Part shown: positions 2,271 to 60,288 of the stretch, in pieces
How positions within the stretch are numbered: position 1 is the first letter of the stretch
Layout: every line of letters begins with the position of its first letter
Origin: Owenia fusiformis
Taxonomy: Eukaryota; Annelida; Polychaeta; Sabellida; Oweniidae
DNA: 64,000 nucleotides
Direction of reading: 5' to 3'
Assembly: GCA_903813345.2 (NCBI GenBank)
Contig: CAIIXF020000002.1
Span: forward strand, 18,426,813-18,490,812
Position numbers and translations under genes: made by a program
The notes under the pieces: generated by a model
Database searches by the model: none
Told to the model about the DNA's origin: nothing
Seen by the model: the letters and a program-made list of their open reading frames with translations, nothing else

Positions 2271-2650
2271 GGGACAAAGTATATTGGGCAACATTCGAAA
2301 ACATATAAAATATAACAAGTCAAAAATACAAAACAAAATATTGAATAGTGATCTTCTATATACTTCATTTAGAATATTGTCTACAAAAAAAATTTGCGAA
2401 ACTATGTCAGAAAAGAATATTGAGTTTTTTTTAATTTACATCACAATGAGAAAGAACAAGGGGCAACATTTAAAACACATGAAGTAATTAACAAGTCAAA
2501 AATGCATATCAATCAATTATATATTGATCTGCTTCCTTGAGATCATTTGCACATATGCATTTTGTGGCAGTAAAATACTGAATTTATTATTTCACATCAC
2601 AGTGAGGAAGCACAAAGAGCAACATTTGAAAACACATGGGCTTTACATAA
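2271..2650. repeat. Decayed tandem repeat, three units of about 160-180 bp
   Basis: A segment containing ACAAAG(T/G)..GGGCAACATT followed by GAAAACACATG recurs near 2285, 2460 and 2617, with similar material between. The copies are diverged and unevenly spaced, so this is an old tandem duplication. Some of it may belong to the transposase relic just downstream. Confidence 0.45.
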
Positions 2651-2689
2651 CTGTTGATGAGCACATTCATGTGTTTGTTCATTATAATA

Positions 2690-3240
2690 AGAGATTCTCT
2701 GAGCTATCATCATCTTCTTCAGATGACGACATTTCATACATATCTTTTGATTTTAAAATGTCAAACTTCGTGCTTTTCTTTTGGCTTTTATACTCCTTGT
2801 GCCTACAACCCTACTCCCAACAAGGCATGTACAACACCATCCAGTGATTGCATCAATACTATTACATACATCTGGATCTGGGTTATACTCCACCCATGTA
2901 TAATGAGATTTAGAGGACACAAACCGATTACTGGACTTTTACACAAATTAGGCCATATGTATCTTTTTTAACAATGATGGTATATTTCCCATCTACTTGA
3001 AGATGGTCATCTTTGCATCGTTTAAATTGATTGGTTTGATCTCAAGAGAGTCTACTATGATTTAGATGTAACCCTCTTGTCTCCATACAGGGGGTACTGG
3101 GAGATTGCAGTTCACTCATACAGTTCCCTTTGCTTTGGGCATTTTATTAGCAAATGTCGTTTTCCGCCTACTGATTGTGACTAACAGTATATTTCTTCTG
3201 TACAATAAAGTTGAGCTGGATTTCTAAATACGAACATTGG
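2690..3240 (-). pseudogene. Decayed DNA-transposon transposase with CxC zinc-knuckle-like motif
   Basis: Reading the minus strand, pieces in different frames resemble an invertebrate transposase family whose C-terminal half carries the pattern GWxCxCxxGxRxVGxC(S/A)H. Visible here are FRNP, then TWVEYNPDPDVCNSIDA, then TGWCCTCLVGSRVVGT, followed by a basic stretch and an acidic Ser-rich tail. The frame changes several times and the CSH half of the motif is lost, so the copy is dead. It is assigned as a plain DNA transposon from memory of this motif in other invertebrate genomes. The exact superfamily is uncertain. Confidence 0.55.
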
Positions 3241-4164
3241 TCTGATCAGCCAGTGAACTGTGATAATATAAAAAAAATCATACACATAACATCAAGATAA
3301 AATGATTGTACAACAATCATCTCATATGAATGTATTGAAAGGAATTGCTTAGAGCCATGGTAAAGATATATGCTTCTCAAGAGGTCATGCTCCAGTGCAA
3401 GCTTACATATTAGTTCATGGAAAGATCATATGAATAAAGAAAAAATACTCAAATATATAAAACACAACTGTCACAATCATTCTAAGGATTTTCAAAATGG
3501 CTGACACCATTTTACTTCATGCTGAAAATTGCAGAAAAGTTCTAGTTTTGCACAACGCTTGGTCCTTACCTAGATTTTTACACATCTCAAGAAGTACCTT
3601 AGAAGTACACTATTCCCTCAATACATATAACTTTCTAGGTATGAACCAAGCGTTATATGAACAAAGCAAGAGTTTATCATGACCTTCCTCTATCTAAAAA
3701 GAAGTAGGTCAACACAATTGCAAACATAACTAATCCCTACTCAATGACTATTGAAATATGACTATTTATATGCACAAGATATTAATCCAATGAGTGTATA
3801 GAGTGCCACAATCGAACAATGGGACATCTGCCAAGTTGGGTTTATATATTCTGGAGACATTTTCTGAGCCTGATAAAAAATTCACATTTTCGCAGGAAGT
3901 TATACATACCTCCCAAATCAACCAAAATATACTTATTCAGGAATCTTGATTGCTTTTTATTGCTATTTCTTGAAAATATACATATTTATCTACAATTTTA
4001 TCCTACATACCAAGGATATTAACGACATTGCATTTTTCAAAAAATGTTAAGTGACCCCAGGGGTGTCTATAGCCATTCGTTCTTTGGAATAAGCATGAGA
4101 CCTATTCAAAAATTGATAATTTTGTGCAAAAAAATCTCTGCGATTCCCAAAGGACAGAAGATAA
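3241..4164. other. Intergenic, no gene seen
   Basis: AT-rich DNA with short unsupported reading frames (61-67 codons) that match no family I recognise and lack splice or signal context. Confidence 0.55.
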
Positions 4165-4818
4165 GGTTAACAGACCGACTTCTACAGTCTGTTACACTGC
4201 TTCAAAGGCAAGCAGTTAAACCTGAAATATAAGAAATCTAAATAATATTGTGCAATAATTTATAGAAAAATATGTTCATATTGCACACGAATGACATTTG
4301 TATATGAGCCTGGCCATAGGAAAACCGGTCTTATCACAAAAATTAAAATTGTGCTACAGAGCCAAAAATGTGCCCAAGATTAAGAGGAAATGTGGTAAAT
4401 TCAAATCCGACTTTTTGGTCTATATATACAAGGAAAAATTGTTAAGACATAAGACCTGGGTTATTTGAAAGGTCTTCTCTGTGCTTTCTGAGATAAACAA
4501 AAAAATCAGATTATTGAAAAGACCCCTTTTCCTGTGGCCTGGCTCATATGTTGGATTGCTTGTAAATTGGCTCATAAAGTCTGTAACCTTATATTTTGAT
4601 GCTTCTCTACCATGTTAATTCTCCAAAAAATAACATTGTGGACTGACCTCAAATTACAAGAGGACACAGGCTTATTGCACTAAACACCAGGCCTAAATAA
4701 TCTGAAATATACTAATGTCATTCGTGTGCAATATGAATATATTTTTCTATGGCCTATAGATTTCTTATTTTTCAGGTTAATTGCTTGCCGTTGAAGCAGT
4801 GTAACAGACTGTAGGCAG
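4165..4818. mobile_element. Fold-back element with about 115-140-bp arms
   Basis: Arms at about 4165-4305 and 4704-4818 are inverted copies, sharing CAGTCTGTTACACTGCTTC and CATTCGTGTGCAATATGAA in opposite orientation. A second, inner inverted pair lies at 4303-4320 and 4531-4550 (ATATGAGCCTGGCCATAGG-like). The enclosed 400 bp has no gene. This is a non-autonomous inverted-repeat element, with arms of roughly 80-85 percent identity by eye. Confidence 0.7.
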
Positions 4819-5472
4819 TATGTTGGATACAGACGGCTTGCATCATGTAAATCCACACCTCGCATACGATGAATATAGAAACAGACTATTTGAATATTGT
4901 CGGGATTTTTCATGAAAATCTGAGTCCAAGACACATGAACTTCGGAATAATTTGATAACAAATCGAGGGTTTTTATCAAAAAATGGATGGATTTAGTTAA
5001 ATATCAGAATGACCACTAAATCGGTATTTGACAGGAAATATGAAAACGTCAAAAATATAGTTCATGAGGACTAATGAGTAATACTCCACTCATTACTTTT
5101 GGAAGGTGGCCATCTTGAAAAATTTTCCTTCTGTAAAACTATTTGCAAACATACTTCTTTCCGTCAAATATTAAGAAAACTCATCAAATAGTGGTTGAGT
5201 TTTTCCCGGAAGGACAGACTAATAGAATGGTTCACTATATCTCTATTCCTATAGTAAAGTAGTAATAGTAAAATTCATAATTCTGTTAACAAGTTGGAAT
5301 CTAAAAATTGAACAATCAAAGGACCATATTGCAACAGTACTATATGAAAATATAAGAACAAATGCCAAAAGGGAAGGGTAACTAAAAAGTTTAAGGAAAC
5401 CCAACAAGAAAAGCAAACTATAAGTGTAAATCTGTCATAAGAAAAGCTTAAAGTAGACCCTATACACACGCA
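4819..5472. other. Intergenic, no gene seen
   Basis: No supported coding or repeat content. Two unsupported minus-strand frames (99 and 64 codons) fall partly in the neighbouring repeat. Confidence 0.55.
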
Positions 5473-5785
5473 GTCCTAACTTCGACCGTTAATTTGAATT
5501 TTTTACCTACCAGGTGCTTGAAAATCAAGGATTGCGAGTCTCATACTGCACCGTTTTCCTTCAAACTTATACCATTAAAAGAAGAACAAAATTGCCTTTC
5601 TGTCAGTGCATTACTTTTTATTGTAAAGAATCCCTCGTTCCAGCAGCGTTTGTAAGAAGGCCTTCTAACAGCTGGGGACCAAAATGCCGCTGGAAGTAGG
5701 GACTCTGTTTAAGAGAATAATGTACCATCAGAAAGGGATTTTTGTTGTGCTTTGAATGGAACAAATTAACGGTCAAAGTTAGGAT
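5473..5785. mobile_element. MITE, 313 bp, 24-bp terminal inverted repeats
   Basis: The left end GTCCTAACTTCGACCGTTAA is matched in inverse orientation by TTAACGGTCAAAGTTAGGAT on the right, with two mismatches over 24 bp. The interior is non-coding. It abuts the mariner relic that follows. Confidence 0.75.
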
Positions 5786-19483: not shown

Positions 19484-22400
19484 TCATCCGTTGCCATTAC
19501 GCTGTCTTTGCCGATGGTCGTGACGGTGGCGGTGATGTGTAGTACGTTCTCCCTGTCTCTTAATATTCAGTTCCAGAAAGGCTTCAAGGGACTGTTCCTT
19601 TTCTGAAAATAATCAGAAGAAAATATCATGATTTGAATGTTATTTGGAACGATAATAACTGCATTGCTTCAATACAGCTTTTGCCAAGGTGGTCCCTTTT
19701 GAAAATTCCAGGGGGTTAAGATTTGACCATTCTGGCCCTAAATCACTTTTTTGTGCTCAGAATGATGAAAATCTGCATGATTTTAGCTTGCTCCACTGAC
19801 CCCCCCCCCCTGGCTACGCCCCTGCATATACTAATAATATGTTTAACTTAAAAAAGGGTTTAATGAAGCGTGACGAATATGTTGGTGAAGCTGTTTTGTT
19901 TGAACAAGAATGAAGGGTGAGAGAACAAGGATACTTAAATCTCAAGTGGAAATAAAAAATGTTAACATAATCAGGAAAAGGAATATCATAACGCCCAGCC
20001 AGCTGTATGAACATATACCCCAGCAACCCAATCAATGACTTACAATCAAACAAATACAAACATCAAACAAACAGATACAAACAACAAACAAATAAATACA
20101 AACAACAAGCAAACAGTATCGAATGACCCCATTCACATCCGCTAGATAACGGCATTGGTAGAACATCTCAAAACATTTGAAATTCAGGACGATTACACAA
20201 AAAGTACCCTGTTAGTACATACCTATTTCACAACAGGCTCCTTCAAAGCCATTTCTACATCCACAGTTTTTATCTACTCCCAGATAACTACCACCGTTAT
20301 AACATCTTGTGTTGCACTCCTGGCTCTCCCAATGGGATATAGGTTCAAATTTACATTGTTTGAATCTATTGCATTTACTGTCTTTTTTATTGTGCTCTTG
20401 GCAGCATTTCTTTTGACAATGTCTGTAGCACCCATTAACTGTTTCATTTTTGGGGCAGCAGAGATAGCGACGTCGCCATTGGTTACCGCCCCCACACGTA
20501 GCTGTACAATTAGTCCATTCACTCCATTCCTTGAAGTCACAAATGTTCAAACATACTTCGTTTCTTTCACTGAAATGTAAAAATTAAATTTAATACCTTT
20601 GGTGTTCTCTATCATATCATCGAATTTTCCAATTAACGGTAATTTGTCAGTAGAGTAAAATTGTAATTTTTTGAGATTGTTATGCGAGTTAGTGGATGTG
20701 AAATGTATCCAGTGGCAAATTGCTATTTTTCCAATTGTGATATACAATGAAATGATATGTTGCTATCATCAAAATTTCGAAAACACGATGCTTTTGAAGA
20801 TTTAATTTCGCTCTTTTTCTGTTATTACATCTTGAATATGCGCCCTTTGTGAACATTCTCTGCTATTTTGTTGATGTAAGTGGAAGAGGAGTCTAGTATG
20901 ACTAGACAAAACTCGTACATCTTTTCTCTTACGAGAGACTGAGACAAACTTTACGAACGGCATCGTAATAAGAATCACATTTCATTCAGTTTTGCCATAC
21001 GAGAATTTGAGGAAATGTTAACAAAACTTGTCTACATCAATAAAATTGAAATGAATTAGGGATGTTCAAGTTTATTTAAGAAAAGACTGCAGTTGAAATT
21101 GTATATTGATAATTGGTAGTTTACTATATACTCGTTTATTGGAAATTTTTTTATGATACTAATGACGCCACTATTGCGATTGATGTCGTAAAAGTGCGGT
21201 GATTTATGAATTGGTTTATGTTTCAATCACGCGATAACAGAGATTTTTCACCCGAGTCCATTTTTTCAATCGTAAGAATTTTGCATGTCTGAATAGATAA
21301 CAAAGATTAAGGTCTATGATTTATACAGTACATTTAACAAAGAACGGTCAGATTGAGAAATGTAATATTACGTCAATATGGCGTAGTGAATACGTAACAT
21401 TTACACTCCCCTCCATAAATTTGAAAACCGGAATTTGTTTTCGGATCACTTATCAACGCCTGTACATGATTTGTGATTCAATAAATGACCATTTTCTGAA
21501 CTGGTCATTATGGTACAAAATTAAGGTCCAAACCTTGATAGGCTTATTCAATATGTGGTATCAGATGACACTTTTGGTTGCAAAATTTCAGAGGGGAGTG
21601 TTCATATACATACTTCATAAACCATTTCTGGAGCAGTATTTATATGTATAAAACTTATGATAGAGAAATATCTTACTGTGGTGATTTGAGGACTTTCTTA
21701 AAGTCGATATCTTTCAAGTCGAGACCAGAAAGTGGACCACCTGTAAAAATAATGCAAAATGCCAGGTAAATACAGGTGATATACAATTCTATATAAAGTG
21801 ATAACAACATGTAAACATTGATCTTATATTGTAATAATGCAAAATGTCAGGTAAATACAGGTGATATACAGGTATATATTTCTATATAAAGTGACAACAA
21901 CATGTAAACATTGATCTTATATTGTAATAATCCAGGTGTGGCAGATATTCAACATCATTGTCAACATAGTTATATACCCTGCCCATTTTATGAGATTTCA
22001 TGACACTCTTTTATGGATGTGTTTATTTTGCTTTTGCTGAAGATGTCACAGTGGTTGTTAATTTTAAAGTTCTGTATACATTTCAAGATACCTTAGTTAA
22101 ATGACTGAAAGGACAAACACTGTTACAGAGTTATCACAATATTTATCTGGTTCAATATTTTATTGAAACTAACTTCTCAATGAATGAGTGGCAATAGTGT
22201 GACATCAATACACACAGACGCCGGTCGCATTCAATGGGGGATTCTCCATAACTAAAATGACACCACATTTCTATTAGGTATCTATTCTGTGTAATACACG
22301 TTCCCATGATTCATGCTATAATATACCATTTATAAGTATCATTGATGTGTAAAAATTATCTTATATATTAATGATATTTCCTGTATTGAAATGAAGTAGG

Positions 22401-38660: not shown

Positions 38661-40350
38661 GAGTCCAAGTCGTCGCAAAGAAGGCTAATAGTTATAGGTA
38701 CATGCATGTAGATTATGAGTACGACCCCTTCAACTTATCTGACAAAGGTTTGAAGAAATTCAAGCCACGAAGCAGCCGAATGTATGCACATGTATGTACA
38801 TTTAGAGGAGTCCAAATCCATGTGCGACCCTTTCAACTTATCTGACAAAGGTTTGATGAGATTCAAGCCACGAAGAAGCCCAATATATATGCGTATGCAA
38901 GAACATGAAGAGCATCGCGACCCCTTTAACTTATCTGACAAAGGTTTGAAGGAATTCAAACCATCACGAAGAAGTCGCATGAACATCAAGAGTAGTTTCA
39001 AACGCACGTACGATCCCTTCAACTTATCCGACAAAGGTTTGAAGAAATTCAAGCCACGAAGAAGCCCAATGCATATGCAAGAACATAAAGAGCAGTCCAA
39101 ACCCCATTTGCAACCCCTTCAACTTATCTGACAAAGGTTTGAAGGAATTCAAACCATCACAAAGAAGTCGCATGAACATCAAGAGTAGTTTCAAACGCAC
39201 GTACTATCCCTTCAACTTATCCGACAAAGGTTTGAAGAAATTCAAGCCATCACGAAAGAGCCCAATGTATGCATATGCATGTATATTCAGAGGAGTCCAA
39301 ACCGATGAGCGACCCCTTCAACTTATCTGACAAAAGTGTGAAGGAATTCAAGCCATCATGAAGAAGTCGCATGAACATCAAAAGTAGTTCCAAACCCATG
39401 TGCGATCCCTTCAACTTATCTGACAAAGGTTTGAGGGAATTCAAGCCATCACGAAAAAGCAAAATGTATACACATGTATGAATATTAAGAGGAGTCCAAA
39501 CCAATGAGCGACCCCTTCGATCAACTTATCTGACAAAAGTGTGAAGGAATTCAAGCCATCACGAAGAAGTTGCATGCACATCAAAAGTAGTTCCAAACCC
39601 ATGTGCGATCCCTTCAACTTATCTGACAAAGGTTTGAGGGAATTCAAGCCATCACGAAAAAGCAAAATGTATACACATGCATGAACATGAAGAGCAGTCC
39701 AAATCCGTGTGCGACCCCTTTAACTTATCTGACAAAGGTTTGAGGGAATTCAAGCCACGAAGAAGCCCAATATACTGTATAAGTGGTAATTTTGCCTAAT
39801 CATTTAATTTGCCTATTTCCTAATTTTTGCCAGGTTCGGAAAATTAAATGTCGGAATATTGTCTTTATAATGTTATCCAATGGGAGGTTTCTTATCATTA
39901 GGAAAGTTAAAATTAGGAAAATGATGAAATTTGACCATTCGGAAAATTAACTACTCGGATTAAATACCACTTATACAGTATATGCATATGCAAGAATATG
40001 AAGCGCAGTCCAAAACCCGTTTGCGACCCCTTTAACTTATCTGACAAAGGTTTGAAGGAATTCAAATTACCACCACGAAGAAGTCGCATGAACATCAAGA
40101 GTAGTTTCAAACCCATGTACGGTCCCTTCAACTTATCTGACAAAGGTTTGAGGGAATTCAAGCCATCACGAAAAAGCAAAATGTATACACATGTATGAAT
40201 ATTAAGAGGAGTCCAAATCCATGTGCAACCCTTTCAACTTATCTGACAACGGTTTGAAGGAATTCAAGCCATCACGAAGAACCCCATCATGATCATAAAG
40301 AGTAGTTCAAACCCACGTGTCACCCCTTCAACTTAACTGACAACGGGTTG
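38661..40350. repeat. About 98-bp satellite, around 16 copies
   Basis: Each unit carries CCCTTCAACTTATCTGACAA, AGGTTTGAAGGAATTCAAGC and CACGAAGAAG, plus a variable part mentioning ATGAACATCAAGAGTAG or ATGCAAGAACATGAAG. Two unit types (MNIKSSFK-like and MYAYAC-like in the + frame) partly alternate. Unit starts are 90-105 bp apart, and spacings are often not divisible by three, so long frames on both strands (such as DPFNLSDKGLKEFKP) are by-products, not a repetitive protein. It is interrupted by a MITE at 39775-39978. Confidence 0.92.
39775..39978. mobile_element. 204-bp MITE inserted in the satellite, TA or TATA target duplication
   Basis: The ends CTGTATAAGTGGTAATTTT and AAATACCACTTATACAG are inverse complements over about 17 bp. 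It splits a satellite unit: sister units read CCCAATATATATGCGTATGC uninterrupted (38880-38900), here CCCAATATA|element|TATATGCATATGC. This gives the empty site and a TA (or TATA) duplication, as in Tc1/mariner-type MITEs. Confidence 0.9.
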
Positions 40351-41319: not shown

Positions 41320-42700
41320 GGTTATATTATGACTGGTTTCCACAAGGTATTCTCCCGTCTCCTCACAAACATATCATGATTAATATGTTTGTCCGTCCTT
41401 TCTAGAGCAGAGTTATTACTAATTTCGCTCTTTTCTTTATGGCTTTCTCTAGTCTCTTAACAAAATCTGTTTGTTCATGCTATTCAGAGCATAGTTTTTA
41501 CTCGTTTCGCGCTTTTCCCCTCTGGGTATTCTCGAGTCTCCCCACAAATACCCGATTGATATGTTTGCCCGTCCCATTCAGAGCAGAGCTCTTTTCCATA
41601 GGGTATTCTCCAGTCTCCTCACAAATACCCGATTGATATGTTTGCCCGTCCCATTCAGAGCAGAGCTCTTTTCTATAGGGTATTCTCGAGTCTCCCCACA
41701 AATACCCGATTGATATGTTTGCCCGTCCCATTCAGAGCAGAGCTCTTTTCCATAGGGTATTCTCCAGTCTCCTCACAAATACCCGATTGATATGTTTGCC
41801 CGTCCCATTCAGAGCAGAGCTCTTTTCTATAGGGTATTCTCGAGTCTCCCCACAAATACCCGATTGATATGTTTGCCCGTCCCATTCAGAGCAGAGCTCT
41901 TTTCTATAAGTTATTCTCCAGTCTCCTTACAAACACCTGATTGATCTGTTTGTCCGTCTGATTAAGAGCATGGTTGTTACTCATTTCGCTCTTTTCCTCT
42001 GGGAATTTTCCAGATTCCTCACAAACACCTAATTGATCTGTTTGTATGTCCTATTTAGAGCAAAGTTATTACTCGTTTCGTTCTTTTCCTCATGGTATTC
42101 TCCAGTCTCCTCACAAACACCTAATTGAACTGTTTGTCCGTCACATTTAGAGTTTAGTTATTACTCGTTTCGCTATTTTCCTCGGGGTATTCTCCAATCT
42201 CCTCACAAACACCTGATTGATCTGTTTGTCCGTCTTATTTAGAGCAGAGCTCTTTTCAATAGGGTATTCTCCAATCTCCTCACAAACACCTGATTGATCT
42301 GTTTGTCCGTCTTATTTAGAGCATGTTTGTTACTCATTTCGCTCTTTTCCTCTGGGCATTTTCCAGATTCCTCACAAACACCTGATTGATCTGTTTGTAT
42401 GTCCTATTTAGAGCAAAGTTATTACTCGTTTCGTTTTTTTCCTCAGGGTATTCTCCAGTCTCCTCACAAACACCTGATTGATCCGTTTGTCTTTCACATT
42501 CAGAGCATGATTATTAATCTGATTGATCTGTTTATCCCTTAATTTAGAGCATAGTAATTACTTGTTTCGCTTTTTCCTTAGAGTATTCTCAAGTCTCAAA
42601 CATCTTAATTTATTGAACTGTTTGTCCGTCACATTCAGAGTTTTGTTATTATGCGTTTCGCTGTTTAACTTAGGGTATTTTCCAGTCTTCTCACCTGAAT
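41320..42700. repeat. 77-93-bp satellite array with an alternating homogenised core
   Basis: About 16-17 units containing GGTATTCTCCAGTCTCCTCA, CAAACACCTGATTGATCTGT and TTGTCCGTC. In the core (41524-41905) units are exactly 77 bp and alternate CTCGAGTCTCCCC with CTCCAGTCTCCTC, a 154-bp higher-order repeat with almost no divergence. Outside the core, units are about 93 bp (extra TTATTACTCGTTTCGC segment) and diverged. Confidence 0.92.
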
Positions 42701-43287
42701 GATCATGAATGGGATGTGGTTATATGTAATTGAATAAATGCATTATATTTAGGTGTAGAAAAGTATACATTCGGATTTTTGGAACAATGGGGAACTATCC
42801 ACCGTTTACAACCATGATCATCACGTTCAAAACCGCAAGACTAACAGACATTTGAGTCATACTATAGTCATAACAATATACATGGAAAATAGAATTTATT
42901 TAAAAGAAATATCCTACCAAAAAGCTGCGGATACAAATATGTACACCGTTGCTCATTATTATGGAATATCAGTTAATTTAACATTGATTCGAAAAAAAGT
43001 TGAATTTTACATATTACATTTCATAGATTTACAAATACTCTAAGCAATAAAACATATTTGTTTAGATGTTCAAAGTGCATAACATAACCGAAATACTTTT
43101 ATACCGAGCGGAGAATTACACAGCAAGTGATACGCGGGCATATTCGGTCTCCATGGAATATTATATATTTTTCTGTTATTTAAGACCTAAAAATTGTAAT
43201 ACAATCTATCTCTTTATTTTAGAGATATCGATCTTTTAAAAGACTCAGTTTTATTAAATGTAATTTGATGAGCAACTCTAGAAATAA
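42701..43287. other. Intergenic, no gene seen
   Basis: No supported feature. A 63-codon + strand frame here is AT-driven. Confidence 0.55.
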
Positions 43288-43755
43288 ATCATCATCCAAA
43301 TGAGATATGACACGCCATGTACATTCAGGAGTTTTTGATGTAGAGGGGGTGCCGTTGTTTTTGACACCCTGTATAACTACTGTAAATCATGTTTCAAATG
43401 AGATATGGCACGCCATGCACATTCAGGAGTTTTTGGTGTAGAGGGGGTGCCGTTGTTTTTGACACCCTGTATAACTACTGTACATCATCTTTCAATTGAG
43501 ATATGGCTCACCATGTACATTCAGGAGTTTTGATATAGAGGGGGTGCCGTTGTTTTTGACACCCTGTATAACTACTGTAAATCATCTTTCAAATGAGACA
43601 TGGCACGCCATGTACATTCAGGAGTTTTTGATGTAGAGGGGGTGCCGTTGTTTTTGACACCCTGTATAACTACTGTAAATCATCATTCAAATGAAATATG
43701 ACACGCCATGTACATTCAGGAGTTTTGATGTAGAGGGGGTACCGTTGTTTCAACC
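43288..43755. repeat. About 103-bp tandem repeat, 4.5 copies
   Basis: The unit includes GAGATATGACACGCCATGTA, CATTCAGGAGTTTTTGATGT, AGAGGGGGTGCCGTTGTTTT and TGACACCCTGTATAACTACTG. The copies are about 95 percent identical by eye, so the array is young. The motif ACACCCTGTA also occurs at 55618 and, inverted, near 63966. Confidence 0.93.
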
Positions 43756-49542: not shown

Positions 49543-49597
49543 ATGGATTATCGGTTCGTTCTAGTTTTCGCCCTGATGGTTCTACCACCAGCCTATG
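49543..49597 (+). other. Exon 1: signal peptide
   Basis: ATGGATTATCGG opens MDYRFVLVFALMVLPPAYG, a short basic start plus hydrophobic core, with likely cleavage near the Ala-Tyr-Gly end. The donor is G|GTAAAT, phase 1, matching the acceptor at 51797. Confidence 0.85.
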
Positions 49598-52500
49598 GTA
49601 AATCTTATTTCATTTTTCTTTGGCTGTTCACTCTTTAAATTAGAGGTCGATCTTGTGTACGGGTATATCCAATCAGAATACGGTATTGTATGCCTATTCT
49701 AGTGATATTGTATGACGCAAGAGTGGGAAATACCACAGAATTGTGATATTATATGACGCAAGAGGGGGAAATACCAAAGAATTGTGATATTGTATGACGC
49801 AAGAGGGGGAAATACCACAGAATTGTGATATTATATGACGCAAGAGGGGGAAATACCAAAGAATTGTGATATTGTATGACGCAAGAGGGGGAAATACCAC
49901 AGAATTGTGATATTATATGACGCAAGAGGGGGAAATACCAAAGAATTGTGATATTGTATGACGCAAGAGGGGGAAATACCACAGAATTGTGATATTATAT
50001 GACGCAAGAGGGGGAAATACCAAAGAATTGTGATATTATATGACGCAAGAGGGGGAAATACCACAGAATTGTGATATTGTATGACGCAAGAGGGGGGAAT
50101 ACCACAGAATTCATAGATGAACTTGTATCCATGTAAGAGTTATATTTTGATTTTCACAAGGAGATATGTTCATCTATGAATACTGGGTAATTTCTCCTCT
50201 TGTATGCCAACAAATTATATCTTAAGTTGATCAAATTTGCGAAATAAGGCAAGTCTATCTAATTTGTGTATATATGACTTGTTTCACGAGTTAAATAATA
50301 TATTAAAGACAGAGTGTCGGGGCAAATCGCCTATTGGCACTCTTTCCCATTGTAAAAGTAATGAACGATAACATGCCCTAGCGGCAATAGGTTTAATGCC
50401 CGGGGTTTAATGTTATCAGTTCCGACAATCACAAATAATCCCATACAAAGTGAGGCTCGTGAATCCACCAATAAAATAAGGAAAAAATTTCTCATAGACA
50501 TATGGGTGTAGCCTACATGAATAGACGCAATTTTACTTCCTGATTATTTCAAAATTGGCGTCCTACTCAAAATGTTCGGCGACCGGCAGTCCCCTTCTGG
50601 ATCGCGTAATAGAGCCAGTATATGTTTGGCGATTTAGAAAATCATGATACTACAAAGATAAAAAGGCTCAAGCATGCTATTCAAAACTTTCGGTAGCCGA
50701 ACTTACGTATTGCATATTTAGAAACTTTTTTATTTCGAATTCCTTGAAATCTTGAGCCATTTTCACACAAACAAGAAAAAATACATTATCTACTTTTCAA
50801 GGAGATAATCTAAATTGCACCAGGAGAGATTCTATTACCGCTTTATCCAGAGCTAATCTCAACGCATCTAAGTAATCCCCCTATCACACCAAACTAGTTC
50901 TTACCCGTTCTTGCCAGTCCTACGAAAACGTCGTAAAACGGGCTCAATCTGGCTGTGGTCGGGAAATATGTCTGAAATAATTAGCACTTCGTTCTTAAAC
51001 AGTCTTCAATACGTCCATCTCGTTCGCAGTTCGTTCAGGTCGCACCACGTCGCTGTGCAACGTAGTAGAACGCGTCCCTTAGTCTAGAAGGCCAACATGA
51101 CCTGATTACAGAACGGTATGGTCGCCATCGAATTTTGAATCGATTCAAAATTCTAAAATCACATTCCCGTCTGAGAACGTTCATAAAGTTCGTAAATAGA
51201 CCTTAGAAAGTTGCAGCTACGTTCATTCCGTTCGCACATTACGTTCATTCCGTTCGCACACAGTTTAAAACCAGTTTTGAAGAACGCAGTGGCAACTTGT
51301 TTGGTGTGATAGCTATATTTTTGCTAACTCGTTCATAAGCAGTGTTAAATACGTTCTTAATCAGTTTAAACCCGTTTGCAATTAGTTCTACCTCGTTCTC
51401 AACACGTCCTCAGACAGTTCAACTCGTTGTTAAAACGTCCCTAGTAGGATTGAAGTACGACGGTTCCGTTCGTAGTACGTCCAGCTCGTCGTTAGTACGT
51501 TGTCACTCGTTCTAATTGTAGAACGTGACGACCACGAGAACATTTTGAGCATTGTCTAAGTTCTAGAGGACCTACCCGTTCGAGTACGTTCGATGAAGTT
51601 TGTAAATAGATCCCAAACGGTTCTTAGTAGGTCCAGTCCGTTCGTACACAGTTGAAGCCCGTTTTCGAGAACGTAGTGAGAACTAGTTTGGTGTGATAGT
51701 AGGGTTATAACGACAAATTCCGAAATTTCAGAAAATTAAAAAGAAATTTCTAATATCTATCGAACGATAATGAATGCTTTAACCGCTTACATTTAAGGTG
51801 GGGTGGACAACTCGGGGACTGAGTTCATACTAATGTTTTTGGAAAACAGTCTGAGAGCGACTGATCCGACAGGAGCTGATGGCAGAATTCGCTTATTTGT
51901 TACCTCTAGAAAGTCTACACCGGTGAACGTATCAATTTCTTGCGAAGCCATCGGATTTAGCGGATCATATACAGTAATGGATGAGCAGTTTCAAACGGTA
52001 AGTAATGAAACTATCATGGTACCAAGATTAAATCAATGTGCGCAAGTATTCCTGACACGGAGGATAAATAAATATTGATTGATAATTCATTTGTAATGGA
52101 GTTCCCATAAATATCGCCAAGCGATTTTATTGTTATATTTGTGAAATTATTTTTTCTAGTCTTGGCCAAGCCCATGAGACACAAGTTGTTAGAGTAAGCC
52201 CAGATAGCCCAGGGTCTTGAAGCAAGACAACAATTTTTCTTATGATTTGTAGTCATTTTTGCAGTTTTCTAAACACAAACCCATATGTTTTCAAAATCCA
52301 CCAATTTCTTCGTATATTCAAGAGTTACTTCACATTCAAAAATCAAATGTATGCATCAACATTTTTTTATTTTGTATAATCCCATTTCGACGATTTTTGC
52401 TCATAAGATTCACACTAAACCAACATCGGTTTATCAGACTTGCTTTTGGCAAATGACGCTTTAAAATCATCAAGTTAAAAATACAGAAAAATCGATCGTG

Positions 52501-55500
52501 GGACTCTTTTTGTGACAAAAATTGTTATGCGATTTTTTCCTTTGTTTTTAGGTCGAGGTTGATACAAGTATACGCCTTACTGAAACAGAGAAAGTTGCTG
52601 ACAAAGGGCTACTCATCACCGCCGATGATGAAATAAGTGTATACATTGTCAACATGGAAGGCCTAAGTGTCGATGGGTCGTTGATCATACCAACTGAAGC
52701 ACTTGGCACTGAGTACATCACGACTACGTGGACACCCGAGAGAAGGACCAGTTTGTTTGGAATAGCAGGGACGCTTGACTCAACCAATGTTGTTATTAAA
52801 TCTACCCAAGAAATCACCTTTGATGGTACAACTCACGCTGCCGGGACAAACATCTCTTTAACGCTAGATCGCCTGGAGGCGTTCCAAGCCTCAAGTGAAT
52901 CCGATTTTTCGGGAACTGAAATATATTCCGATCAACCCATCGCTGTTTTCTCTGGAAATAAGAAGACCAGGGTTACAGACGGAGCATCGAGCAATACTGC
53001 TGACCATCTGGAGGAGATGTTGGTTCCAATTACGCAATGGGGAAAAGAATTTTACACAACCCCCACACCGGGTACCACCACGAGAGGACATTATATAAGG
53101 GTAAGAAACCTCTGGTCCAGTAATACCATTTTTGTGGTCCAGGAATTGGATAAAATGATAGACTATACAAAGGTAACAAAATAACACGAATCGATAATGA
53201 TGACCAATGCTCTCGTCTTCTTTTATTTCTGTTGGTAGCTGAGTCTGAGCTATTAACATTTACAAATTATTCCATCACCACCATAGTATCCAAAAGATAA
53301 TTGGCCTTTTCAAAGTGTAGAAAAGAATGGGGGTTCTTCAAGTCGGCGACACTGTTTGATAGTTTTATTATTCCAGGAACTCTACTTGGAGGAAAACGTA
53401 TTATTTGAACAGGGAACATTGTCAAATCATAGTAAGGCGAGAGAATACTAATGATCAAAGATATGACTGTCTAAAGTCACTTGCCAAATTATACCTAGTC
53501 AATCATTTTAAATTCCCTGTCCTATTCCCAGTTTACCTGCCCTATTTCCAGATGACAATGCCACTGGTTCATATACCTGGTCGTTTTGAGTTCCCTGTCT
53601 TATTCCCAGAATGCTATACCACATCTTGTTCATTAAATATCCCTTGCCCTAATCTTAGATTGCCATACCAGACCTGGTCCTTTAGGTTCCCTGCCCAATT
53701 CCCAGATTCCCTTACCGCATCTGGACCTTTAATCAGGTCTCATGCCCTATTCCCAGATTGCTATACCACATCTAGTTCGTTTAGGTCTCCTGCCCTATTC
53801 CCAGATTACCATACCAGGCCCTGTCGTTTTAAGTTCCTTGTCCTATTCCCAAATTGCCAGACCATACACCTGGACATTTTAGATTCCCTGCCCTATTCCA
53901 TGATTGCCATAAAAGCCCTGTCATTTTTAAGTTCCCTGCCCTATTCCCAGATTGCCATACCAGACCCTGTCGTTTTAAGTTCCCTGCCCTATTCCCAAAT
54001 TGCCATACCATACACCTGGACATTTTAGGTTCCACGCCCTATTCCCAGATCGCCATACATGTAACATACACCTTGACATTTTAGATTCCTCGCCCTATTC
54101 CCAGATTGCCATACATGTACCATACACCTTGACATTTTAAGTTCCCTGCCCTATTCCCAAATTGCCATACCATACACCTGGACTTTTTAGGTTCCCCGCC
54201 CTATTCCCAGATCGCCATACATGTAACATACACCTTGACATTTTAGATTCCTCGCCCTATTCCCAAATTGCCATACATGTACCATACACCTTGACATTTT
54301 AGATTCCTCGCCCTATTCCCAGATTGCCATACCAGACCCTGTCGTTTTAAGTTCCCTACCCTATTCCCAGATCGCCATACCAGACCTTGTCGTTTTAAGT
54401 TCCCTGCCCTATTCCCAGATTGCCATACATGTACCATACACCATGACATTTTAGGTTCCCTGCCCTATTCCCAGATTGCCATACCAGACCCTGTCGTTTT
54501 AACATCCCTGCTCTATTCCCAAATTGCCATGCATGTACCATACACCTTGACATTTTAGGTTCCCTGCCCTATTCCCAGATTGCCATACCAGACCCTGTCC
54601 TTTTAAGTTTCCTGCCTTATTCCCAGATTGCCATACCATACATCTGGACATTTTAGGTTCCCTGCCCTATTCCCAGATTGCCATATCAGACCCTGTCGTT
54701 TTAAGTTCCCTGCCCTATTCCCAAATTGCCATACCATACATCTGGACATTTTAGGTTCCCTGCCCTATTCTCAGATTGCCGCACCATACCATGTCCTTTT
54801 GAATTCCCTGGTCCATTTCCAGACTCAATAACATTTTAACGTTTTAGCTTACAGCAGGAGAAGATGCAGTGAACTATTGGGTGACGGGGACGAGTGACTT
54901 CTCAAGTAATGGAACACTAACCAATAAGGCAGATTTTGCAGATGTAAGATGTTATCATTATCAAAACAAATTAATATCTTATTTAATTCAATCGCTAAAC
55001 CACGATATCAGGCTACAATAAACACCAAAGTAATTTCATCTTGATATAACATGATTGTTAGAAAATGTCTATTTTATTCATGGCTAGTTTTGTAAGTACA
55101 AACCTTTTTTTTAGATAACGGTACCAGCGGCGACCTACGTAAGCATAATATCGGACAAACCCATCAGTGCTTTCAAGTTCATACTCAGTCAGGTAAATAC
55201 ACTCAGCCAGGGATATACTCACTGGAACATTACTAGATAATGCGCAACAGCAAATAGCGTATTATTATTACCACCTTGCCGGGCCAGTTCTAGGGGTTTT
55301 AGTGCTAGTTTAGAAGGTTCGGCCCTCGGCCCAATATTTCACTATATTGCCCTTAGAAATGACGTTATTGTACTATTATGGTCTCCTCACCTCCATTACG
55401 TCAACTTCAGGTAGCGTTTCACGATGGATTCAATCGGAGTATTGAACATTTGTTAGTCAGTGTTTGTATCACGGTAATTGTAGTTATCAATTTAATTTGC

Positions 55501-58500
55501 GTTACAATTTTACTATTAGTCTGTAAGTATAAATGTCTCAATGTATATTCTGTATTGGAACAAACATTTTAGGCATAAAGTGCTTTTGAAATAAATAGGG
55601 GAGGACATATTTATTTGACACCCTGTACACGTATACTCATCCGAACAATTTTAGCTAGATGGTTCCAATGGCGTTCGGATTAGACAGGTTTTACTGCACT
55701 AGAATATACTGTGTTATTTTGTTGCCCTTTAGACAACAGGAACGACCGAAGCGGCTGATCCAGCTATGATAATGCTTGTCCCAACAGTCCAATGGAAAAC
55801 TGCCTACACCGTTATCAGCCCACCAGCGGCTTCCGGAACCTACGAACACTATTTGGCAATCGGTAAGACACACAAGATAACTGCAGTACATGTTGACTAT
55901 ACATGTTTGATTTTCAATTTCAAGCTGTTTTGAATTATCATGGATCATTTTAATTAAGATCCTACGACCCAAGTTAACTTCATTATTTTGAAAGAAATTC
56001 TACTTTAGTTGGTTTTTATGTTAAAACAAACTGATAAAGGAAAATAAATGGATATTTATATAAATCAAATATTTAGGTAATGTACCCCTGAGTCATGACT
56101 GTATCTGCTATTTCAGTTGTTGAAAGTGGGCGCGAAGATACACTAGTACATGACAACGAGGCGTTTAATGTCACCGATTACCCTTGGAACAGTATACCTG
56201 GAACAAATTATGTTGGGACTTGGATACCTGTAGCGGAAGGTAGTGGTTTTATCAGTTGTAGACGTTTCTGGTAGAATTTCAATTTTGGAATTTATTGTTC
56301 AAATATTTGTTGTGTATTGAAAGAATCCATATGAGCACTTGACTCAATGTGAAGTAGATTACAAGTGGATTGTTCCTTCCTTAAGCGAAGACCGAGTTCT
56401 AGGGAAAGATCAAACAATCCACAAATTATATATTTTACAAGATCTGCTGAATTTTCAAATATCAGGCCTGGCTATGTGAATCACATATCATTGACACCCT
56501 TTCGTCACTTTACATGTATAGTTCACACGTTCTTTTAATTTTCAGGTGCCCATACACTTTCTAACACTGACAGTATTGGCCAATTCTCTGGTTACCTGTA
56601 TGGAAAGCAGTTAGCGGAATCCTATGGCTTTCCCCTAGGAATGAGGAACGAGTTATCTAACGCAGTGAGTACAACTACAGTAACCATACACTTCTCTCTA
56701 TAAGATTATATTTGTATCATTTCAAAACGTCACATTCTTAAACCGTGAAATATGGCTTCTTAAGTTCAACATACACCAATGGGACAATGTTATCTCCATA
56801 CACTTAGCGTGATTGTCGAACCTCGTAGTACGCCACGGGGCTTTGCCTCACGATGCCCCATCGATTTCCAAGGTAGGCTACTTCATGGTCGCGAAGTCCC
56901 ACGGAGTCCGACCAAGCTTCGTCAAGATCTGATGATCCGTTCATTATTTCCATTGCGCATCGTGAGACACCTTTTGCCCATGCGACGTATCGATTGACTT
57001 GTTGGATCAAAATGTCGGTGGTGGCAAAACTTTCTAAACTTTTGAGGGGCCGGACTCGATCTCGATGGGGAACGGTGGGACTCGATGGGACTCCATGCAT
57101 GGGGCAAAGTCAATGAGGTTCCATGGGACCTCGTGGGACTCGAGAAAAAGAAAATACTGGATTATGTTGGTGCTGCCATCTTTATATCGGCCCAGAACCT
57201 ATGGCTGGGATTTTGCCTTATTAGTTGGAAGATTACCGATGTACCGATTGTATATCCGACTAACTTCTGTTTTGTAATCATAATTGTTACACCTCCCCTC
57301 CTTCTCCCCATCGGTGTGCACTGGGCTTTACTTCCGAGTCATGGCCAATCGGAGAATGAGGAACATATGTGATTTAATCATTAGTATTATTTTATTGTTA
57401 GCCCTGCGTGGTGACGGCGAGTGTGATAGGCGATGGCACAGATAATGACTGTGACGGAAGGGTAGACGAGGAAAATTGTGCAGCCGATCCCGCAGGTACG
57501 TCTACCCAATAATACCAGATTAGCTTATCATAATTTTCACAGCATTTGTTCATAAATTGTAGAACTGCAAACACTTTTTCCATTCTAAAATCTTAAATAA
57601 CTTGTTGGTACTATTTATATTATCATTAAATATTCTCAAAGATGACGACGGGGACGGAAACGAAGACGAGGATTGCGCAGCACCCCATTGTGGTACACCA
57701 CCAAGCGACGCGAACGCTAATATTACGGGGACTAACTACAACTATCCTGAATCGATCACGTACACATGCCATGAGAACTGCACTATCCAGGGGACAGAAG
57801 ATACTAGCGAGAGTATTCAGTGTCAATCGGACGGCACATGGACTGCTCACACCCCATGTGATTGCTCTGGCGACGACGGAGGCGGCGGAGACGGTAATGG
57901 AAAACGTTTAATGTTAATGTATGACGTTTTGAAACCTTGAAAAATGTAAAATGTGGACTATACTTCTAAATATTTCTACATGTTCAAAAATCGGAATTCA
58001 TATTTTAAAAACGAATTGAAAAGAATCTTTATGAGCCCACTTAGTTATCCAGTCTACCAGTGATAGGCTAACAATCAAATAATGGACAAATTATACTTAT
58101 TCCTTTTATTAAAACATTATAACCTTTGCTGTTTTCGTCATTGGGCATACAATGATTATCTTGACATGGCAAAACAAATAATTATAATGAGTTAAATGTA
58201 TCTCTTAATCACAAACAAATATCAATCTTAATCAATTTCCAGTGGCTGGAGATCCTCACGTGATGATCAACGTCAAAGGGGTAGATAAACCAGTATGTTT
58301 CGACTTCACGGCCCCCGCTGGAAAGGTCATACAAATCCTCTCTGTGCCCTCAAAAAGTAAGTTTATGTTGGAAAAGAAAGTGGGCAGTAAGATCTGTAAA
58401 TCCTAACAGATACTTTGGGAAGTCAGGAATTTCTAAAGTCCAACTGTTTTAAAATTTGTTACTATGACGCCAGTTGACTAAAAGATTTTTCAACATCAAG

Positions 58501-60288
58501 AAATTTGTGTTGATACGTTGTTGACGTTGGTACTTTTACACAGTGCATCTATTAACATACGAGGGTTTCTCCTTTCAGATGTAAGAACATATTGCTCATG
58601 ATCTTTTAACGGCATTGAAAGAATAAATGTGCAAGTAGGCACAGTTAGTCTAACTGTGTTGTACTTTGAGTCAGTAGAGCGGGAGAAAACACTGGAAATG
58701 TTAACTTCCTATTGTTAATTTGGTCTTATATTTTGAGCTCAGATTCTCTATCGCTCTTTCTGACATGAGTTGATTCACTTCCCTTTAAAAATAAAGATAA
58801 ACACATTAAAAACAACTTATTCAGCACTATTTTATTCCACAGATTTGGTTGTAAATGCCAAAATGGTCTCAGAGGAAATAGAGTCACGACCTGGATCCGG
58901 ACATGCGTATTATCTTGGGGAGGCCGTCATACGTATGGGGAACTTCTGGGTTCACGTAGGGGCAGAAACGCATTACATGAATATTGGGGGGAAAGTGGAA
59001 AGATGGGGACCGGCGTTCCAGAGGAATTACATCGCTAAGGTAATCTTCGAGTGTATTATTTGAGTAACCGTTATTTTACAAAGGTCTGCTTCTTACGAAG
59101 AAGATTAATTAGTGCTTTCATGAACAGGGTGCAATTTTGACAGTCCAAAAATCCCTCAAAATTGAATGGACAAAAGAATTTCTTCATAGAAAATATATAT
59201 GATATTTAATTTTCACCTCCTTGTATTGTGAATCCGAGGCATATTGTATATTGTATTGTATATAATAACCAAGCTGAACAATGATAAAATATTAGGAGAT
59301 AATGACCAAGAGAAACAATTTTGACTTTTCACCTTTACTGCCACGCCTTTTTCACCAAGCATGTTAAGGTAACACTTTTTTTCCTGGCTCACGACTTGCA
59401 TGAAAACATCTTGATTTGGTTGTTATAGTTCGGAAATGAAAAGGTCCCCGTTGCTGTACGCATCTTAAAGCAAGACAGATACAGAATGGCAGTACATATC
59501 AGTCATTTGGCTACGATTGTGATCGCACGCTTCAACAACCATCTAGACGTATTGGTCACCAAACTTGATGAATCTCTCTGGCCTGCTGGTGGCATTGTTG
59601 GTAATGACACGTTAATATCTATTCAGAGTACACTCCCCTCTATAAGTTTGGCAATCGGAATTTTTCATGCCATGGCATATCAAATCCTGAATTTTGTTCC
59701 TTAAATACAATAGTTCGATTCGTTCATGACGTTGGTGATTTTTAAATCGTCAAACTTAAACAAGCTTTGATAAGTGATCCAAAAGGACTAATGGTTGCCA
59801 AACTTATAAAATGGGGTGTAAAGAAATTGGGGGATAATGGTCCATCTTTAAGAGGCCCATACCTTAAATAGAACAATTTAAGAAAACTATTCTTTACACC
59901 ATCTTGATTCACAATGTTCCAGGTGCTCCAACTTCATTTTATTAAAACACCTTGGACGTCAAAGATGTATTTACGTCTTTTGATCTGTAACTGATTTCCA
60001 TGTATTAATAACCACCTCTATCATATTCAAGGTCAAGCAATGACAGTCGAGGCTTCACTGACCATGGATCAGAACGACGAGAAACTGGGACAACTCAAAT
60101 TTGAGGGCTTTAACGAATACCAGACCGTGGAGTTGCAAAATAGATCCAAGATGGGTGCTCTAGAGAAACAAGAAGAATACTTTGGCCACAGAGTTGACTG
60201 CTGGCACAAGGATGGCATACCCATTGGGAAAGTACATGATTTTAAAGTTAAAGACTTGTACTCCAGGAAGACTAAGATTGCCAAATAA
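49543..60288 (+). CDS. Secreted IgGFc-binding / Sushi / ITIH C-terminal domain fusion protein (14 exons)
   Basis: Exons: 49543-49597, 51798-51997, 52552-53100, 54848-54943, 55115-55192, 55733-55862, 56117-56239, 56546-56664, 57402-57495, 57642-57893, 58243-58356, 58843-59039, 59429-59600, 60032-60288. All are GT-AG with matching phases: 2436 nt, 811 residues plus TAA. Residues 1-19: signal peptide. About 20-450: IgGFc-binding-protein N-terminal region (GTEFILMFLEN, LDRLEAFQA, SDQPIAVFSGN, DHLEEMLVPITQWGKEF, ESYGFPLGMR). 451-493: acidic D/N-rich linker (DGTDNDCDGRVDEENC, DDDGDGNEDEDC). About 498-556: Sushi domain. About 569-811: ITIH C-terminal domain, from DPHVMINV to VDCWHKDG and DFKVKDLY, with the Cys pair C584/C783. 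VIT, VWA and VWD domains are absent. It is probably an extracellular matrix, mucus or defence protein. The start is the first ATG before a clean signal peptide. The ITIH call rests on pattern and length. Confidence 0.9.
49700..50115. repeat. 41-bp tandem repeat in intron 1, arranged as an 82-bp dimer
   Basis: The unit is TGATATTGTATGACGCAAGA plus GGGGGAAATACCACAGAATTG. Ten copies alternate GTATGACG...CCACAG with TATATGACG...CCAAAG, so the real period is 82 bp, nearly identical throughout. The minus-strand frames through it are artefacts. Confidence 0.95.
50881..51699. mobile_element. CGTTC-rich inverted-repeat element in intron 1
   Basis: CTATCACACCAAACTAGTTC at the left end is matched by GAACTAGTTTGGTGTGATAG at the right. 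An internal end-like GGTGTGATAG lies at about 51303-51312. The interior holds dozens of GTTC/CGTTC/ACGTCC words in both orientations (for example CGTTCATTCCGTTCGCAC twice near 51220-51260). It is non-coding. It could be a non-autonomous hAT-like element, but no 8-bp duplication was confirmed. Confidence 0.7.
51798..56664 (+). other. Exons 2-8: IgGFc-binding N-terminal region
   Basis: Seven exons encode about 430 residues typical of the IgGFc_binding family: a first strand pair (GTEFILMFLEN, IRLFVTSRKSTPVNVSIS), a second lobe (GLLITADDEISVYIVN, LGTEYITTTW), the LDRLEAFQA and SGTEIYSDQPIAVFSGN blocks, and the closing HTLSNTDSIGQFSGYLYG, ESYGFPLG motif. Exons 3 to 5 are bounded by phase-0 introns. 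In vertebrate FCGBP this region precedes VWD repeats, which are not present here. Confidence 0.9.
53490..54830. repeat. 48-58-bp tandem repeat in intron 3, about 25 copies
   Basis: Units share CCCTGCCCTATTCCCAGATT and GCCATACCA. They differ in a linker, either GACCCTGTCGTTTTAAGTT or TACACCTGGACATTTTAGGTT, often alternating. The 207-codon + strand frame at 53405-54028 crosses this array and is not coding. Confidence 0.93.
56779..57150. other. GC- and CpG-rich patch inside intron 8
   Basis: Base composition shifts sharply to roughly 50 percent G+C, with many CpG dinucleotides and repeated GGGACTCGATGGGACTC-type words. A 98-codon minus-strand frame (56804-57100) and an overlapping + frame (57085-57372) run through it without recognisable homology. 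It is probably an inserted repeat of another family. Confidence 0.5.
57402..57893 (+). other. Exons 9-10: acidic linker and Sushi (CCP) domain
   Basis: Exon 9 encodes DNDCDGRVDEENC, the D/N-rich acidic motif often found directly after IgGFc-binding regions in invertebrate proteins (Ca-binding is plausible). Exon 10 repeats it in shorter form, then gives a CCP domain with four canonical Cys at 498, 524, 542 and 554, the Trp at 548 and two extra Cys (528, 556) that may pair. It ends in a flexible SGDDGGGGD linker. Confidence 0.85.
58243..60288 (+). other. Exons 11-14: ITIH C-terminal domain
   Basis: About 243 residues. The start GDPHVMINVKGVDKPVCFDF parallels the ITIH pattern DPHF(I/V)I..P....LCFNI. 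LVVNAKMV parallels the VNGQ strand, and YYLGEAVIRMG parallels YFGxLGI. RMAVHISHLATIVIARF sits at the V..QV/VVVLH strands, and GGIVGQ at GLLGQF. HRVDCWHKDGIPIGKVHDF parallels the conserved CWF...G..DYIV end. Only two Cys (584, 783) are present, as in that domain. A VWD domain also begins GDPH but would have many more Cys, so it is disfavoured. Confidence 0.72.
59630..59820. mobile_element. MITE C copy in intron 13
   Basis: ACACTCCCCTCTATAAGTTT, then GGCAAT, at the left and ATTGNNNGCCAAACTTATAA style sequence ending ATGGGGTGTA at the right. It starts only 29 bp after the exon 13 donor. Confidence 0.75.

Follow-up and report, generated by a model that had tools for sequence, protein, structure and literature searches.

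The gene at 49543..60288 (+) of a 64,000-nucleotide stretch of the Owenia fusiformis genome (C2:18426813-18490812 of the 498-Mb assembly, referred to hereafter as the window) encodes a probably secreted mosaic protein of known modules in an unusual order, the first exon of its tail being common in the genome. The protein reads as a putative signal peptide, an IgGFc head, two acidic motifs, a Sushi domain, a Gly/Asp linker and a C-terminal domain of the type found in inter-alpha-trypsin-inhibitor heavy chains (ITIH), which opens with the tetrapeptide GDPH. We think it rather probable that this is a functional gene for a secreted mosaic with the domains so assigned, and that cleavage between Asp593 and Pro594 within GDPH would be its likeliest mechanism; this reading overlaps with a rival one, weighed below, in which the tail is used as in FCGBP.

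From the ATG at 49543 to the TAA at 60288, 14 exons on the + strand join in phase across AG/GT borders, with no internal stop, into a product of 835 amino acids. The exons proposed for this DNA in an earlier note are thus upheld (14, in phase, with a continuous frame over 49543-60288), as is its 243-residue tail, while its overall length of 811 residues falls 24 short; since the tail counted from Asp593 is equal in both models, the difference sits in the front part. The N-terminus, MDYRFVLVFALMVLPPAYG, has a signal-like start and no transmembrane stretch is seen in the 835 residues (both judged by eye). The protein carries 13 cysteines, seven N-glycosylation motifs and one DPH. The exons, all kept in the second copy of the gene described below, and the features they carry are as follows.

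49543..49597 (+): exon 1, residues 1-18, with the ATG followed by a signal-peptide-like stretch (by eye)
49702..50111 (no strand): 41-bp minisatellite in intron 1, an intron of 2200 versus 1020 bases in the two copies
51798..51997 (+): exon 2, N-terminal part of head
52552..53172 (+): exon 3, head; PF17517 matches at 8.3e-37 from the exon-3 reading frame alone
52672..56604 (+): span of the Pfam IgGFc_binding match, residues 126-454, exons 3-8, 1.4e-52
53580..54810 (no strand): ~98-bp minisatellite in intron 3, an intron of 1675 versus 1087 bases in the two copies
54848..54943 (+): exon 4, head
55115..55192 (+): exon 5, head
55733..55862 (+): exon 6, head
56117..56239 (+): exon 7, head
56546..56664 (+): exon 8, end of head
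57402..57495 (+): exon 9, acidic motif 1 (DGTDNDCDGRVDEENC) at 57432-57479; a similar motif occurs in the head paralogue L039
57642..57893 (+): exon 10, acidic motif 2 (57642-57676), Sushi (57689-57865) and Gly/Asp linker; both exon borders in phase 1
58243..58356 (+): exon 11, opening part of the ITI_HC_C-type tail, GDPH at 58248-58259
58843..59039 (+): exon 12, tail
59429..59600 (+): exon 13, tail
60032..60288 (+): exon 14, tail end and TAA stop

A near-identical second copy lies on contig C124 (588,817 bases), where 14/14 exons align ungapped, all splice dinucleotides are kept and no internal stop occurs. The two copies differ at 29 coding nucleotides, 27 of them synonymous and two amino-acid-changing (Y18F and A433V), giving pS 0.048, pN 0.001 and a pN/pS of 0.022; the synonymous/nonsynonymous counts are 13/2 in exons 1-9, 4/0 in exon 10 and 10/0 in exons 11-14. 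The introns are looser, with indels in 9 of 13 and identities of 0.90 to 1.00. We read the C124 copy as the other haplotype, though it may be a recent duplicate; in either case, head and tail both look, from their sequences, as if kept by selection. The intact exons and the synonymous excess argue that the gene model is not a product of chance, and the gene looks real and maintained. A pseudogene was rejected on the low pN/pS together with the lack of internal stops.

The head and the Sushi domain, both proposed in the earlier note, are confirmed by Pfam matches above cut-off. IgGFc_binding (PF17517) covers residues 126-454 over the complete model (positions 1-297 of 297; 1.4e-52, 179.3 bits against a cut-off of 25.6), and Sushi/CCP covers residues 522-580 (6.8e-6, 26.8 bits against 20.7). 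No other Pfam family matches the 835-residue protein at E≤1, VIT, VWA, VWD, C8 and TIL included, and the architecture that had been claimed (IgGFc head, Sushi and ITIH-C-type tail without VIT or VWA) is borne out to that extent. Between head and Sushi lie two acidic motifs missing from the earlier note, DGTDNDCDGRVDEENC (residues 485-500) and DDDGDGNEDEDC (residues 506-517); they have no Pfam match, and the corresponding site in the paralogue L039 (C2:16.69 Mb) matches the MopE metal-binding motif at 0.003, below cut-off. We regard both as putative, metal-binding-like motifs. L039 shares the IgGFc head and similar acidic motifs with the window gene (35% identity, 63 of 180 aligned positions, over part of the head and the motifs), whereas in place of Sushi and tail it carries a stretch rich in Thr and then a hydrophobic segment (transmembrane as judged by eye) with KRKRKRR. 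Clean insertion of a Sushi exon was considered and rejected, because exon 10 opens with acidic motif 2 and the L039 counterpart of that motif continues in frame into the Thr-rich stretch. At residue 581, CSGDD holds an SG dipeptide flanked by acidic residues, a simple motif picked out by eye that could be a putative glycosaminoglycan attachment site.

The assignment of the tail as ITI_HC_C-type, in the wider sense of homology, is supported by profile comparison and by shared introns. Seven tails of the same genome served for comparison: L014 and L015 (the ITIH pair), L016, L017 and L020 (the Cys-rich trio), and L035 and L036 (the C11 pair, at C11:27.07 Mb). The genome holds a classical ITIH gene, with VIT at C3:5716446-5717125, VWA in L014 and ITI_HC_C at C3:5709050. 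Against all seven tails the window tail reaches an hhalign probability of 98.3% (E 1.3e-14), as compared with at most 0.4% for every one of the controls (12 full shuffles, the reversed tail and two pieces of the head). Pfam PF06668 itself matches five of the eight aligned tails (best 2.7e-31), which we take to be the ITIH pair and the Cys-rich trio; against these five, the window tail scores 95.9% (5.4e-9), the C11 pair 99.4%, and the window tail pooled with the C11 pair 99.5% (3.1e-23).

The intron pattern, for which splice sites in the comparison loci were chosen by eye, points the same way: two of the three internal tail introns share place and phase between the window gene and the ITIH-type tails. 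The intron that follows the GDPH exon is in phase 1 at donor and acceptor alike, both in the window gene and in 7/7 other tails. The last tail junction (GGIVG|Q in the window, GLLG|Q in ITIH) has a phase-1 donor in 7/7 and a phase-1 acceptor in 6/7, the acceptor of L017 not being placed. An exon start in phase 1, two residues ahead of GDPH, is common to the window gene, L035 and L036.

Several observations weigh against this assignment. The Pfam model ITI_HC_C (PF06668), on whose match the earlier note had staked its ITIH tail, finds nothing in the full-length protein at E≤1 or in the tail by itself at E≤10, and the window tail is not among the five that it recognizes; the claim stands instead on the comparison with the GDPH tails of the genome and on the shared introns. 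When the first 20 residues were kept and the remainder shuffled, the score still came to 87-94% in 12/12 cases, such that these 20 residues hold much of the profile score. Removal of the first 40 residues brings the probability down to 1.5% for the ITIH pair, 0.6% for the Cys-rich trio and 4.3% for the five taken as Pfam-positive. In L014 (where the donor would be a GC site), L015, L035 and L036 the middle tail intron is at a different place, and L016, L017 and L020 lack it. The same truncated tail retains 91.6% against all seven tails and 94.9% against the C11 pair, and the full window tail aligns with the ITIH pair over columns 2-89; the truncation scores therefore make the ITIH link a direct one for the start of the domain and one via the C11 tails for the remainder. 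Neither phmmer nor the eight-tail profile gave a useful match among PDB sequences.

Joining this tail to the head depends on the exon 10/11 junction, which is predicted from DNA. Were exons 1-10 an IgGFc-Sushi protein and exons 11-14 a separate neighbouring gene, one would point to the stop at 57940 that read-through of exon 10 meets, to the one ATTAAA at 58108 within intron 10, and to a 37-residue ATG frame with a hydrophobic start at 58082 (seen in the window copy). We hold such a split to be very unlikely: in each copy, exons 10 and 11 meet in phase 1 across AG/GT borders; intron 10, at 349 bases, falls inside the range of the other introns (146-2200) and lacks AATAAA; and the GDPH exon begins at the same place and in the same phase in L035 and L036, in L035 downstream of a VWA domain. 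The junction is accepted on account of phase, selection and the lack of a convincing rival end or start.

How strange is this arrangement? The earlier note saw in it the head of one family joined to the tail of another; the combination was found at only a single locus and its second copy, yet the degree of strangeness was overstated, given the predicted VWD-like topology and the dispersal of such tails. PMC10880436 reports GDPH in 11/13 VWDs of FCGBP, and places it in ITIH3, ITIH5 and ITIH6 within a predicted sandwich that has VWD topology and is not annotated as VWD. With the ITIH C-terminal domain so predicted, a GDPH sandwich placed after an IgGFc head bears a resemblance to FCGBP. Like FCGBP, the window protein has an IgGFc_binding head, is predicted to be secreted and bears GDPH downstream; unlike it, it has no VWD, C8 or TIL match at E≤1, hence none of the repeated VWD-C8-TIL assemblies of FCGBP proper, but one Sushi and one ITIH-type tail, whose cysteines do not bridge the cut. 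With ITIH heavy chains it shares DPH at the start of the C-terminal domain, the invariant cysteine pair and two internal intron places and phases; it differs from them in the head, which comes from another family, in not reaching PF06668, and in having no match at E≤1 to the VIT and VWA that precede the C-terminal domain of a heavy chain. The C11 pair (L035/L036) shows the best identity to the window tail among the seven (27-28%) and the phase-1 start ahead of GDPH, but L035 has VWA (4.9e-19) and a Thr-rich stretch upstream where the window gene has the IgGFc head. From 2574-5514 onward, L035 presents VWA, Thr-rich stretch, Cys segment and GDPH tail in series, and no VIT match was seen near it on C11; it is perhaps a second ITIH-tail architecture. 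A narrow literature search found, among the papers listed, no description of IgGFc, Sushi and ITIH tail in one protein, and the excerpt of PMC7333891, on limpet adhesives, contains no ITIH term; an annotated relative may well exist.

For the mode of action we propose that the protein is secreted, that its tail would fold as a VWD-like sandwich, and that GDPH would break by itself between Asp593 and Pro594 during secretion, as in the VWDs of FCGBP. The motif Asp593-Pro594-His595 is present in the window tail, and its Asp, Pro and His are invariant in 8/8 aligned tails. Self-cleavage of FCGBP D10 requires the Asp as well as the His of GDPH, and is aided by a Gln 14 residues past the Asp (PMC10880436); by simple counting, that position is Val607 in the window tail, a point against cleavage here. 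Cleavage at Asp593-Pro594 would in our estimate have about an even chance, or a little better. The missing Gln, again by counting, would suit a tail that serves as fold or spacer only, with GDPH an uncleaved relic; we consider this unlikely, since Asp, Pro and His would hardly be expected to be invariant throughout, nor exons 11-14 to lack any amino-acid difference between the two copies.

The only two cysteines of the tail, 608 and 807, both follow Asp593-Pro594 and are invariant in the eight aligned tails, and for this reason they probably pair with each other, in which case the halves would not be disulfide-linked. From the GDPH chemistry of FCGBP and ITIH, taken with these cysteines, we infer both the cut and the loss of the tail, the head-Sushi part being released with a C-terminal Asp. 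In ITIH heavy chains, it is the C-terminal domain that is lost. The “pro-domain” wording of PMC7170535 implies as much. Possible, if in our estimate clearly short of an even chance, is an FCGBP-like use only: the tail would amount to a VWD domain, cleavage at GDPH would serve stability, and the two halves would remain joined, with no transfer to a sugar chain. Work by Ehrencrona from 2021 is said to have found FCGBP fragments held together by disulfides, an arrangement at odds with two invariant cysteines that both follow the cut. FCGBP-like use draws strength from the VWD topology predicted for ITIH tails, from the stabilization of FCGBP D10 by GDPH cleavage (PMC10880436) and from the lack, in the window protein, of any VIT or VWA match as the usual heavy-chain body.

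Under the reading that we prefer, cleavage with loss of the tail, the C-terminal Asp may in addition pass as an ester to glycosaminoglycan, in the manner of ITIH heavy chains. Each heavy chain of inter-alpha-inhibitor is joined by an ester from its C-terminal Asp to N-acetylgalactosamine of chondroitin sulfate, and TSG-6 can move it to hyaluronan (PMC4661386); ester transfer of the head-Sushi part is in our estimate improbable. The likely role of the protein would be in mucus, a surface coat or a body-fluid defence matrix. As to its origin, an IgGFc gene coding for a Thr-rich stalk and a membrane anchor (compare L039) may have acquired a Sushi domain as well as a tail flanked by a phase-1 intron.

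Both ends of the protein belong to well-populated sets in this genome. Searching with the L036 tail (E≤0.1) returned 71 matches, of which 57 start no later than residue four of the query, which places their start at the GDPH exon. The window gene, the C124 copy and the ITIH loci are included, and a few of the weakest matches may be VWD domains and not of ITIH type. GDPH-type tail exons are dispersed over C1-C4, C6-C12 and smaller contigs. One match, at C2:22268592 (E 0.0057), falls within an open frame of 2264 amino acids. Tail genes occur in several copies (L016, L017, L020, L019, L021, L022 and, on C476, L012 and L013); a Cys-bearing segment stands immediately ahead of GDPH in L016, L017 and L020, and in L016 neither this segment nor a more distal upstream reading frame has a Pfam match.

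PF17517 has at least 36 matches in the genome, merging to at least 27 loci. The family is expanded, with head clusters at C7:31.91-31.93, C8:21.76-21.78 and C2:16.69 Mb. A tail match within 280 kb of a head was found at 2/27 head loci, the window gene (5.6 kb) and the C124 copy (4.6 kb), as counted with the L036-tail query, which more diverged tails would escape. Three of the 25 other head loci were read: L037 carries repeats rich in Thr/Ser, a Cys-bearing reading frame in L038 finds no Pfam match, and L039 is described above; GDPH was not found in the + frames of L038 and L039 (6 kb each).

Elsewhere in the window, a reading frame at 20212-20583 (-) matches TSP1_spondin at 2.6e-5, below cut-off, and continues into a cysteine run that looks EGF-like by eye. 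A 93-bp tandem repeat at 38754-40233 is open on both strands, with + strand units like DPFNLSDKGLKKFKPRR, and further tandem arrays occupy 41524-42640 and 43285-43750 (units of 77/92 and 98 bp, respectively).

ITIH heavy chains are the known case of coupling through a C-terminal Asp to chondroitin sulfate or hyaluronan (PMC4661386). That the window gene encodes an IgGFc protein with a captured ITIH coupling machine, cutting itself at GDPH and fixing its head-Sushi part via the Asp to glycosaminoglycan without VIT or VWA, has in our view a slim chance. If true, an adhesive or immune head would be covalently anchored to a sugar matrix, and with GDPH-type tail exons at dozens of other sites in the genome, one or more of them in a VWA gene that lacks a VIT match nearby, this would be a general animal “cut-and-ester” display system far broader than the ITIH family. 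An ITIH tail used as a module on an unrelated, mucus-type head, together with its dispersed first exon, makes the sufficiency of the tail for cleavage and coupling testable, and one GDPH-bearing fold would connect FCGBP-type and ITIH-type proteins.

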